DNA of 64,000 nucleotides from Hufsiella ginkgonis (GTDB taxonomy: Bacteria; Bacteroidota; Bacteroidia; Sphingobacteriales; Sphingobacteriaceae): contig NZ_WVHS01000002.1 of NCBI RefSeq assembly GCF_009834915.1, forward strand, positions 620,001 through 684,000, read 5' to 3'. Positions 39,683 through 42,558 of the stretch are shown here, in pieces. A program made the position numbers and the translations under genes. The notes under the pieces were generated by a model that was not told the origin of the DNA, did no database searches, and saw nothing but the letters and a program-made list of their open reading frames with translations. How positions within the stretch are numbered: the stretch's first letter is position 1; the number at the start of each line of letters is the position of its first letter.

Positions 39683-39836
39683 GGTCCGCATTTACCGGTC
39701 TCCCTTATACCTGCATATCCGCCGGCGGGTTTTCGCTTTCACCGGATTACCCCAGTCCCCAACCTTTGCTGCACACAATTACCAACAAAATAACTTACTG
39801 TTTTTCAACTAGTTAAGTTTTGCTTGAAAATTATAT

Positions 39837-39868
39837 TTTGTTTTTACTAACCAAGCATCCTATATTTG
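39837..39868 (+). promoter_or_regulatory. Promoter of the metX-hom operon
   Basis: TTTG at 39837-39840, a 20-nt spacer, then TATATTTG at 39861-39868: an exact Bacteroidota -33/-7 pair. Transcription would begin about 39875, some 45 nt before the riboswitch. The 154 nt between the preceding gene and this promoter hold only a short GC-rich palindrome near 39720 and nothing else recognisable. Confidence 0.7.
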
Positions 39869-39921
39869 GAATATTATTTGGTAGCAATACCAATCCTATC
39901 AGGCCCCTTAATGAGGTTTTG

Positions 39922-40030
39922 ATTTATAAAGAAGTGGTGAGAGACAGGCTCCGAGACCCACTGACAACCCCCCTGAGTATTTGGGGAAGGTGCCAAATCC
40001 TGTCCTGGTAAGAACCGGGAAAATATAAAT
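39922..40030 (+). ncRNA. SAM riboswitch (SAM-I clan)
   Basis: A conserved SAM-binding aptamer upstream of methionine genes. The closing stem is ATTTATA (39922-39928) with TATAAAT (40024-40030). The GACAGG / CCTGTC stem pairs 39943-39948 with 39999-40004. The CTGACAACC core and a CCCC/GGGG hairpin (39970-39986) follow, then the diagnostic AAGGTGCCAAATCC segment (39987-40000) and a final hairpin CTGG-loop-CCGG near 40005-40019. SAM binding would lower expression of metX and hom. No T-tract terminator follows, so control may be translational or act through the leader ORF that begins 12 nt downstream. Confidence 0.85.
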
Positions 40031-40041
40031 GTTTTAAAACC

Positions 40042-40110
40042 ATGAAAAAGGAAACACCAAGAGACTTTTCGATTCGCACCACTTCCGTGATGTGTTGTTG
40101 CATGTGCTAA
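40042..40110 (+). CDS. Cys/Met-rich leader peptide (putative)
   Basis: A 22-codon ORF with an ATG start, 12 nt after the riboswitch. It begins MKKETPRDFS and ends with six codons MCCCMC directly before the TAA stop. Four of the last five residues are cysteine and Met occurs twice near the end, an extreme bias in the two sulfur amino acids whose pathway starts at metX downstream. This is the layout of a translational leader whose ribosome stalls when Cys- or Met-tRNA is scarce. The remaining 129 nt to metX show no obvious terminator stem. Too short for ordinary gene finders; expression is not proven. Confidence 0.6.
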   Translation: MKKETPRDFSIRTTSVMCCCMC

Positions 40111-40239
40111 CAAGCCAGGCCTGCTGATCGTCCCGCTTCCCGGTTCACAGATTCAGCGCTTTGCGGCGGAGACAGCGTATTACAACCCGCTCAGCTTCAA
40201 CCAACCAGTCACATTGCGATTAAAAGTCAGATTTTATTT

Positions 40240-41301
40240 ATGAGCCAGGTACACGTTTACAAGCATAACCGACCCTTCGAACTCGAAAACGGGAAAATTA
40301 TTCAAGATCTCGAAATTGCCTACCATACTTACGGCAAGGTCAACGAAAAAAAAGACAATATCGTTTGGGTTTGCCATGCGTTAACGGCCAACGCCGATGT
40401 GTTCGACTGGTGGAAAGGACTTTTTGGCGACAACGCCTTGTTTAACCCCGCGGAGCATTTTATCATCTGCGCCAATATTATCGGCTCGCCCTATGGCACC
40501 ACGCATCCGTTAAGCATTAACGAAGCAACCGGGCAGCCGTATTACCTCTCATTCCCGCAATTCACCATACGTGATCTCGCAGCGGCGCACCAGTTGCTGG
40601 CCGATCACCTTGACTTCGATACGATCAGTATCCTTATCGGGGGATCGCTTGGCGGGCAGCAGGCGATGGAATGGAGTATCGCCGAACCTGGCAGGATCCT
40701 AAAATTGATCTTGCTGGCTACCAATGCACAGCATTCTCCATGGGGAATCGCTTTTAATGAAAGTCAGCGGCTGGCCATTACCAGCGACCGTACTTTTTTT
40801 GCTAAGAAACCAGATGGCGGAAGCAAAGGGCTAAAAACCGCACGAAGCATTGCGCTGCTCTCCTACCGCACGTACGAAACGTATGCAATATCGCAGCAGG
40901 AGATCTCGCTGGATAAATCCGACCAGTTTAAGGCGTCTTCTTACCAGAACTACCAGGGCGAAAAACTGGTAAAACGTTTCGACGCATTTAGCTACTGGTA
41001 CCTTAGCAAAGCGATGGACAGCCATAATGTAGGCCGGAAACGTGAATCGGTGGAAAACGCACTTCATCGCATAAAAGCCAAAACACTGGTAATCGCCATT
41101 AATTCAGACCTGCTTTTTCCGCCGGATGAGCAAAAATACCTGGCGAAACACATCAAGGGCGCCGATTATACCGAGATCAATTCGTTTTACGGGCATGATG
41201 GTTTCCTGGTGGAGACCGGTGTGATCGCCAAGGCGATCGGTATCTTTTTAAAACAGGTAGATTCGGATAAAGACGTGATCACTTTACATAAAATAGCATA
41301 A
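40240..41301 (+). CDS. metX: Homoserine O-acetyltransferase
   Basis: A 353-residue alpha/beta-hydrolase-fold transferase that acetylates homoserine, the first committed step of methionine synthesis. Signatures: WVCHALTANADVFDWW, NIIGSPYGTTHP, IGGSLGGQQAMEW with the nucleophile Ser near residue 134, and the catalytic His in YGHDGFLVE near the C-terminus. Some family members use succinyl-CoA; the length and sequence here fit the MetX type, and the acyl donor is not proven. It is preceded by a SAM riboswitch and a Cys/Met leader ORF and followed by hom after 18 nt. Confidence 0.93.
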   Translation: MSQVHVYKHNRPFELENGKIIQDLEIAYHTYGKVNEKKDNIVWVCHALTANADVFDWWKGLFGDNALFNPAEHFIICANIIGSPYGTTHPLSINEATGQPYYLSFPQFTIRDLAAAHQLLADHLDFDTISILIGGSLGGQQAMEWSIAEPGRILKLILLATNAQHSPWGIAFNESQRLAITSDRTFFAKKPDGGSKGLKTARSIALLSYRTYETYAISQQEISLDKSDQFKASSYQNYQGEKLVKRFDAFSYWYLSKAMDSHNVGRKRESVENALHRIKAKTLVIAINSDLLFPPDEQKYLAKHIKGADYTEINSFYGHDGFLVETGVIAKAIGIFLKQVDSDKDVITLHKIA

Positions 41302-41319
41302 CATTAAGGCACATCGATA

Positions 41320-42558
41320 ATGAGTAAAAAATTAACGCTTGGTTTGTTTGGGTTTGGCGTGGTGGGACAAGGCTTGTATGACATCATACGGAGTAAAAAC
41401 CTGAACCTTACGATCAGGAAGATCGCTATTAAGAACCCGGGCAAACAACGTTCACTTCCCGGGCATTTGTTTACGACCGACAGTCACGAAATTTTGAACG
41501 ACCCCGAGATCAACACCGTTGTTGAGTTGATCAACGATGCAGATGCCGCTTACGAAATCGTTACCACGGCACTCCGAAGCGGGAAAAACGTGGTATCGGC
41601 CAACAAAAAAATGATCGCCAATCACCTGCAGGAACTTGTTGCGATCCAGGAGACATACGGAACCTCTCTCCTTTACGAAGGTGCGGTTTGCGGAAGCATC
41701 CCGATTATTCGGAACCTGGAGGAATATTATGACAATGAGCTGCTTTATTCGTTACGCGGAATTTTTAACGGGTCATCCAATTATATCCTGTCAAAGATCT
41801 TTAACGAGAACCTTGGATACGACACGGCATTAAAACAGGCGCAGGACCTCGGCTTTGCCGAAACGGACCCGATCATGGACGTTGGCGGCTTCGATCCGAA
41901 ATTTAAGCTTGCCATCGCCACCGCGCATGCATACGGACTGTTTATCCACCCGGATAACATCCTAAATGTGGGGATCCAAAACCTTTCCGCCCAGGATATT
42001 CAATACGCGCGGGAGAAAAATTATAAGATCAAACTCGTTCCAACGGCACTTAAGTCAAGCGAAACCGGGGTTGTACTATATGTATTGCCTAAACTGATCC
42101 GCAATGATGATTTTCTCTACAATGTAGAAAACGAATACAACGGCGTGATCGTACAGGCCGCATTCGCGGATCAGCAATTTTTCTTCGGAAAAGGCGCCGG
42201 CGGGCACCCAACAGGTTCTGCCGTGCTTTCCGACATCGCCGCGCTGCGGTACGACTACCATTACGAGTACAAAAAACACCAGCAGCCCAATGCGCTTGTA
42301 CAAACGAACGATCATGAGCTGAACGTATACCTGCGTTATACCGACGAATTCCAGCTGGAAAAACTAGAATTCGAGGACATTACCGAGCGGTTCTACACGC
42401 ATAATTTCCGGTATGTAACGGGGACGATCAAGCTGGCAAACCTGGTTAAGCACCAGGACGAGCTCCGTAAGCCAGGGATATTTATCGCCGAAACAGGCAA
42501 TAAAACTCTCCAGGGAGGCCCGGGCGAATTTGCCGAGCTCCAGGAAGCGGAATATTAA
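41320..42558 (+). CDS. hom: Homoserine dehydrogenase
   Basis: A 412-residue enzyme reducing aspartate semialdehyde to homoserine, the substrate of MetX. The NAD(P)-binding loop is GLFGFGVVGQGL at the N-terminus; SANKKMIANH, GAVCGSIPIIRNLEE, RGIFNGSSNYILSK and AETDPIMDVGGFD are conserved catalytic segments, and KGAGGHPTGSAVLSDI follows. A C-terminal extension of about 80 residues is not a standard ACT domain that I can recognise. Co-transcription with metX puts both under the SAM riboswitch. A bidirectional terminator lies about 30 nt downstream. Confidence 0.92.
   Translation: MSKKLTLGLFGFGVVGQGLYDIIRSKNLNLTIRKIAIKNPGKQRSLPGHLFTTDSHEILNDPEINTVVELINDADAAYEIVTTALRSGKNVVSANKKMIANHLQELVAIQETYGTSLLYEGAVCGSIPIIRNLEEYYDNELLYSLRGIFNGSSNYILSKIFNENLGYDTALKQAQDLGFAETDPIMDVGGFDPKFKLAIATAHAYGLFIHPDNILNVGIQNLSAQDIQYAREKNYKIKLVPTALKSSETGVVLYVLPKLIRNDDFLYNVENEYNGVIVQAAFADQQFFFGKGAGGHPTGSAVLSDIAALRYDYHYEYKKHQQPNALVQTNDHELNVYLRYTDEFQLEKLEFEDITERFYTHNFRYVTGTIKLANLVKHQDELRKPGIFIAETGNKTLQGGPGEFAELQEAEY

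Follow-up and report, generated by a model that had tools for sequence, protein, structure and literature searches.

A SAM riboswitch upstream of metX in Hufsiella ginkgonis is predicted to regulate a Cys/Met attenuator leader peptide

The 5′ region of metX in Hufsiella ginkgonis poses the question of what a very short open reading frame (ORF) that ends in cysteine and methionine codons is doing directly behind a SAM riboswitch. Our comparative analysis makes it likely that the ORF regulated by this riboswitch is a Cys/Met attenuator leader peptide. Cells would then probably read SAM together with Cys/Met supply in one RNA, and SAM probably controls whether the leader itself is translated. We also lean, with rather less assurance, towards the more specific proposal that the start codon of the attenuator leader is the riboswitch’s direct target, such that SAM would decide whether the leader is read and Cys/Met-tRNA how far the ribosome gets. 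The Bacteroidota make little use of Shine-Dalgarno sites, and we know of few attenuators that have been worked out in this group.

The window referred to throughout is the whole 64,000-nt stretch of the H. ginkgonis genome that was analyzed (NZ_WVHS01000002.1, positions 620,001 to 684,000); its relevant features are given in Table 1. An original prediction, made from the sequence of the window, had placed a 22-codon ORF ending in MCCCMC between a SAM riboswitch and metX. Both coordinates and codons were confirmed: the ORF reads MKKETPRDFSIRTTSVMCCCMC, with its ATG at 40042, a TAA stop at 40108-40110, and four Cys and two Met as the final six codons. It does lie just behind the aptamer, at a spacing of ten bases (aptamer end 40031, leader ATG 40042) and not the 12 nt first given. 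An ATG ORF with at least four Cys+Met in its last ten residues was found in 0/3000 dinucleotide shuffles of 40032-40239, and among the short ATG ORFs (8-60 aa) of the whole window, 336 on the plus strand and 425 on the minus strand, the leader alone has at least five. Clustering of pathway amino acid codons near the leader end, as in attenuators of the trp/his type, is present.

Table 1. Features of the metX 5′ region and the genes behind it, in positions of the window
Feature	Position	Strand	Basis
Bacteroidota-type promoter match, TTTG-N20-TATATTTG	39837..39868	+	pattern match to consensus
5′-end hairpin U1, TTGGTA-GCAA-TACCAA	39878..39893	+	fold; similar hairpins of other sequence in relatives
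P0 5′ strand, GGTTTT	39915..39920	+	pairing statistics; weak in named set
SAM-I aptamer, A/U-rich P1 (GATTTATAA / ATATAAATG)	39921..40031	+	Rfam match, 77.2 bits
P0 3′ strand, AAAACC, adjoining leader AUG	40036..40041	+	pairing statistics
Leader ORF, MKKETPRDFSIRTTSVMCCCMC	40042..40110	+	ORF and translation; equal arrangement in relatives
Met/Cys control codons (putative), ATG TGT TGT TGC ATG TGC	40090..40107	+	codon reading; position profile from stop
Leader-to-metX spacer	40111..40239	+	no terminator found; local structure unremarkable
metX, homoserine O-acetyltransferase	40240..41301	+	family profile fit
hom, homoserine dehydrogenase	41320..42558	+	family profile fit

The aptamer was identified as a match to RF00162 well above the gathering score (44.4 bits), and SAM binding is predicted. 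The promoter pattern, which we take to be of the Bacteroidota type, occurs 4 times in the window vs 1.10 expected. A TAnnTTTG element lies 23-62 nt upstream of the aptamer in 30/33 loci of one set, and within 75 nt of it in 44/76 loci, and no more, of the named set described below. With an aptamer and a predicted promoter upstream, the leader ORF is predicted not to be leaderless. Near the predicted mRNA 5′ end, the GNRA-capped hairpin U1 recurs, with differing sequence, before leader-class aptamers, at a weak folding signal (mean z -0.58, SE 0.12, 77 sequences); a hairpin directly upstream of P1 (U2) gave no signal (z -0.13). At gathering scores, cmscan detected no T-box in the window or at any of the 80 named loci, and a relaxed search of 8 leader loci (up to E = 1) detected none either.

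Both genes downstream of the leader fit their expected families by profile, in agreement with the predicted metX-hom pair, although MetX scores under NCBIfam’s own cut-offs while fitting the homoserine O-acetyltransferase family. The best match to metY in this genome is only 42% identical, across part of the query. The genome contains four SAM aptamers, with leaders at metX and at a SusC-like receptor and none at iscS or metH. The second leader (L002:1714-1773, MKFFTCLSAPLVTASMHCC) ends in MHCC and has a SAM aptamer on one side and a SusC/RagA-type TonB receptor on the other; receptor-type leaders recur in relatives, with endings such as FRMRMPC and SSLCCCCCC. A search of the same genome for other short ORFs ending in CCC, in which 30/83 pattern matches were examined, yielded 3 short ATG ORFs, each of them overlapping a long frame.

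Conservation was assessed in a named set of 80 loci that were retrieved via MetX, each of which has exactly one Rfam SAM aptamer. Measured from the exact aptamer end, an ATG ORF starts at -3 to +10 nt in 80/80. This proximal ORF has at least three Cys+Met in its last ten residues in 79/80 (the exception is L049) and at least four in 75/80; a pattern scan found at least four in 74/79, vs 0.22 expected from shuffles. The first long gene after these aptamers is metY in 76/80 and metX-like in 4/80. Relatives that keep the riboswitch without the ORF had been named in the original prediction as evidence against it, and 79/80 named relatives retain both. Conservation of the leader in relatives, which is expected of an attenuator, is also seen in a second family (below).

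A family sample comprised 150 aptamers among the matches listed for 151 family genomes. Downstream gene classes were assigned from N-terminal patterns, with an HMM check on the receptor of L002 only. Among the matches listed, a tail of at least three Cys+Met was found in 45/55 metY loci (1.27 expected from shuffles), 5/6 metX loci, 10/10 of a TonB-receptor-like class and 6/22 of the unclassified “other” loci, a class that took in five metY loci (L121, L140, L148, L159, L172) and the receptor-like L093, L094 and L103. At the iscS, metH, metE, ahpC, TlpA-like and hom riboswitches of the family, a leader was found in 0/57 among the matches listed. The tail criterion was missed by 10/55 metY and 1/6 metX loci among the matches listed; L214 and L215 scored 0 where the gene finder had taken an overlapping frame as the gene, and the other misses are mostly leaders of RMR type, whose last ten residues hold one or two Cys/Met. 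These belong to one genus whose leaders retain chiefly Met near the end (RMR). In one genome, L121, the usual TAG register of the RMR-type leader is lost and the leader reads to a later stop, and the following stem sequence is retained. The exceptions to the leader rule in the family sample are L229 and L175, the latter having no leader. A further 118 aptamers were listed, of which 117 were taken (G056, at a contig end, was left out). Outside the family, a leader was present in 1/89 sampled loci among the matches listed. In the second family, which belongs to the same class, it was present at 9/13 A/U-P1 loci and 0/16 others among the matches listed (30 loci, with L374 not placed). These counts are not independent, because the loci share ancestry and some genomes sit in both samples.

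The presence of the leader is tied to a particular P1 helix. In the family sample, among the matches listed, the AUG lies 5-11 nt past the aptamer in 57/63 proximal leaders, and P1 reads TATAAA in 61/62 proximal-leader aptamers vs 4/73 without a leader, the leaderless-locus aptamers having mostly a GATAA P1 (60/73); L086 and L157, for which exact ends were lacking, are outside these distance and P1 counts. The P1 of the named set is TATAA[AG] in 59/80, otherwise A/U-rich in 21/80 and GATAAG in 0/80, with a mean of 9% G+C. Among the matches listed, mean P1 duplex energy is -3.5 kcal/mol for the TATAA[AG] class (85 loci) vs -6.6 for the others (152), and an ATG stands at the leader position in 83/85 vs 35/152; the class omits P1s written AGATAAAT, such as that of L175, which were counted with the others. 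Another twelve leaders, which precede receptor-like genes, are 69-132 nt away from aptamers that do not have the A/U-rich TATAAA P1 and must therefore be gated differently.

In many loci, P1 is extended by a helix, P0, in which the bases before P1 pair with those before the leader AUG (GGUUUU/AAAACC in the window, GGUCUU/AAGACU elsewhere). Over 77 loci of two families among the matches listed, own partners pair at a mean of -2.80 vs -1.87 for permuted partners (sd 0.14), a value reached in 0/2000 permutations. Among the matches listed for the family, at least 4 bp ending 0-2 nt before the AUG were found in 43/60 loci (permuted mean 31.7, maximum 40 in 1000 runs), and P0 fails in 17/60; its two sequence types are matched in 43 loci and mismatched in 1, with 16 unclassified (p about 1e-10 if shared ancestry is disregarded). 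The P0 signal is weak in the named set, which is rich in Pedobacter (32/64 own vs 26.9 permuted, with 48/1000 permutations reaching 32) and in the second family (5/14 vs 2.3, reached by 28/1000, among the matches listed). No count is based on a separate P0 alignment of 42/60 unique family loci, which were picked after P0 had been seen. The position of P1 near the leader AUG is general, and P0 is not. At L175, the metY start replaces the leader, 10 nt past the aptamer and with equal P0 pairing, which is possibly an ancestral or reduced form of the arrangement.

The conserved tail could in principle reflect an RNA element only, in which it is the structure around the tail that is conserved, with the Cys/Met codons a side effect of pairing. 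The CMCCCIQ codons of Pedobacter-type loci do form a hairpin (in helix 1, 3/7 pairs are changed on both sides and 91.9% of cells are paired), and the N-terminal peptide is poorly conserved, with weak coding selection (over 26 disjoint pairs, synonymous changes number 62/199 in frame vs 47/165 and 32/182 out of frame). However, among the matches listed, wherever at least four of seven codons are TGY, the cluster shares its frame with the proximal ATG (32/32 loci), despite leader lengths that range from 16 to 49 codons, and clusters of at least three do so in 48/53, compared with 2/9 at other riboswitches. Moreover, TGT and TGC are both in use (278 and 242, respectively, within the ten final codons across 131 leaders), and the various genera and the second family reach Cys/Met-rich ends via different sequences (CMCCCIQ, CICMCCCC, CCCPCCC, GPCCCCCCY). 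We therefore regard an explanation by RNA structure only as very unlikely.

Between genera, only the Cys/Met end is retained; the remainder of the peptide drifts, and Cys+Met cluster within the final eight codons (Cys in 69% and 71% of leaders at the third and fourth codons from the stop, Met in 58% at the sixth). Since tail order varies and the remaining peptide drifts, codon-by-codon sensing fits better than a defined arrest peptide. A related possibility is that the Cys-rich end of the nascent peptide binds metal or is oxidized, and that arrest reports thiol, metal or redox state and not tRNA charging. Runs of six Cys exist (L105, L375), and genes with peroxiredoxin-like and cysteine desulfurase-like N-terminal motifs also lie behind SAM riboswitches, yet the enrichment extends to Met, the order of residues is not conserved, the RMR leaders retain chiefly Met, and most leaders precede metY or metX, all of which renders such sensing highly improbable. 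It is also conceivable that translation of the leader is all that matters, with a short ORF extending SAM control to a distant gene by coupling or Rho protection (polarity relief) and the Cys/Met end being secondary. Four loci that combine an A/U-P1 riboswitch with a short ORF directly past the aptamer, before metY, have no Cys tail (L288, L305, L360, L361), and metY itself begins 10 nt past the aptamer at L175; retention of the tail in 79/80 named loci, where it would be unneeded for translation alone, makes this reading unlikely.

A Cys/Met attenuator leader under SAM control would work as follows. When SAM is bound, the A/U-rich stretch before the leader AUG would be held in P1 and, in loci that have it, P0, and leader initiation would be poor, as position and covariation suggest; at low SAM, the weak P1 would open and the leader would be translated. 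When Cys-tRNA or Met-tRNA is short, the ribosome would stall in the codon cluster of the last eight or so codons, to judge from conservation of the tail, and its position would set whether the post-stop RNA structure forms and hence metY/metX expression. Low SAM and low Cys/Met would each favor expression. Two inputs to metX-hom had been predicted; co-conservation of leader and riboswitch supports both, but they look serial and not parallel, because P1 (with P0 where present) covers the start region of the leader itself. If true, a riboswitch and a translated sensor together form a compact serial gate at this locus, with the logic NOT SAM AND short of Cys or Met, and the readout of a stalled ribosome without an intrinsic terminator becomes directly testable. 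The arrangement would also single out dozens of candidate small ORFs, together with a SAM-I subclass that has a weak A/U-rich P1.

The least certain step is the readout after the stop, for which Rho-dependent or intrinsic termination, mRNA decay and translation are candidate outputs. The only terminator-like site picked up in a scan of 39690-40300 (39717-39730) precedes the promoter match. Folding of 40032-40260 was not unusual vs shuffles (z +1.25), and the post-stop segment of the window was less stable than its shuffles (z +1.08). The original prediction had seen no terminator stem here and suggested folding 40111-40239; scan and folding likewise show none downstream of the aptamer, with a segment no better than shuffles. 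Its expectation of a non-classical mechanism also holds, most loci having no classical terminator. The intrinsic terminator and competing antiterminator of an attenuator were thus not found after the aptamer in the window. As the spacer is unremarkable and the genus of the window is represented by one genome, the readout step is unsupported in the window. In relatives, post-stop RNA folds better than shuffles (mean z -1.95, SE 0.11; 128 leaders, 121 distinct, among the matches listed), and its first paired base lies 0-11 nt past the stop in the middle 80% of loci, close enough for a ribosome on the last codons to reach. The leaders analyzed yielded no output shared by every locus.

The groups of leaders differ in this RNA. 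Pedobacter-type loci have three covarying hairpins (68 double-changed cells vs 23.1 shuffled), the first of which overlies the Cys codons; two other measures of the same alignment were unremarkable, namely pairs with double changes (10 vs 7.8, reached by 58/500 shuffles) and pair types (27 vs 24.3, reached by 40/500). The three-hairpin RNA follows the leader stop, as at L038:2402-2506, with AAATCTTCC...GGAAGG and then YCCC...GGGRTACGC; in L206 and L224 it has no Rfam match, the SAM aptamer being the sole match. Terminator-like stems occur in 7/22 of a Mucilaginibacter-like group vs 3.0 shuffled (suggestive only) and in 2/8 RMR-type leaders vs 1.0, and are not enriched in Pedobacter-type (3/52 vs 8.6) or mixed loci (5/39 vs 4.6). 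In at least 4/7 Mucilaginibacter-like cases (L076, L135, and the near-identical L195 and L196) the stem joins Met-Cys codons to post-stop bases, and in 19 Mucilaginibacter-like loci pairing of the Met-Cys codons with the next hairpin’s 5′ arm is better than with shuffled arms (z -1.15, SE 0.25); the corresponding pairing in Pedobacter-type loci is worse than shuffled (z +0.81). A Mucilaginibacter-like alignment, A2, was excluded from counting with its hairpin arms out of register. Two candidate outputs were rejected. A general intrinsic terminator was scored on 121 distinct leaders with 8 shuffles each and a threshold of -5 kcal/mol, and enrichment was not general. Base pairing between the leader and the metX start appears in the lowest-energy fold of the window (GACUUUU with AAAAGUC) and has a mean z of -0.06 over 128 leaders.

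Systems resembling parts of this arrangement have been described. Polycysteine short ORFs of mycobacteria have Cys codons near the stop, precede sulfur genes and have no conserved terminator hairpin (PMC1262725, a 2005 prediction; Canestrari 2020, via PMC9094748); the window leader shares the Cys run near the stop and the lack of a conserved terminator. The mycobacterial ORFs are leaderless, by the title of Canestrari 2020 (via PMC9094748), and lie before cys or cbs genes with no riboswitch mentioned in the sections cited, whereas the window leader has a SAM aptamer just upstream and Met enrichment. Tandem SAM-I/T-box(Met) RNAs before metX and metY, with a predicted NOT-SAM-AND-starvation logic (PMC9481103), have SAM and tRNA-charging inputs, genes and a predicted logic equal to those proposed here; according to the cited sections, the T-box RNA binds tRNA directly, whereas in the window a translating ribosome would sense charging. 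A Xanthomonas SAM-I riboswitch senses uncharged initiator tRNA and exerts mainly translational control of met genes (PMC7270179); it too has two inputs in one SAM-I leader, as proposed for the window, but the tRNA binds the expression platform and the abstract makes no mention of a leader peptide. The uORFC-8-2 motif before cysS of Rhodobacterales has tandem Cys codons and proposed attenuation (PMC8632094). It resembles the window in its Cys-codon uORF but is consistent with an intrinsic terminator, belongs to another group and gene, and has no riboswitch named in the cited sections. At the Sinorhizobium metA SAM-II riboswitch, SAM controls a ribosome-binding site close to the aptamer and also translation farther away (PMC9373788); there AUG1 is in frame with AUG2, which starts metA, and is unused in its natural context, and the cited sections mention no control codons. 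Both kinds of component are known, and a riboswitch acting on the start of a leader peptide would be the new element. In the open-access literature, searched by titles and abstract openings and with most subscription papers outside its scope, no report that links a SAM riboswitch to a Cys/Met leader was found.

Two observations concern neighboring regulation. SAM riboswitches of this family also precede genes with peroxiredoxin-, TlpA- and cysteine desulfurase-like N-terminal motifs (L101, L109, L117, L128, L138, L205 and others), to our knowledge an unusual spread of targets for SAM-I. A Mucilaginibacter genome carries a segment matching Rfam’s leucine operon leader (RF00512; L071:8710-8867, 53.1 bits vs 50), which is possibly another leader-peptide attenuator in the group.
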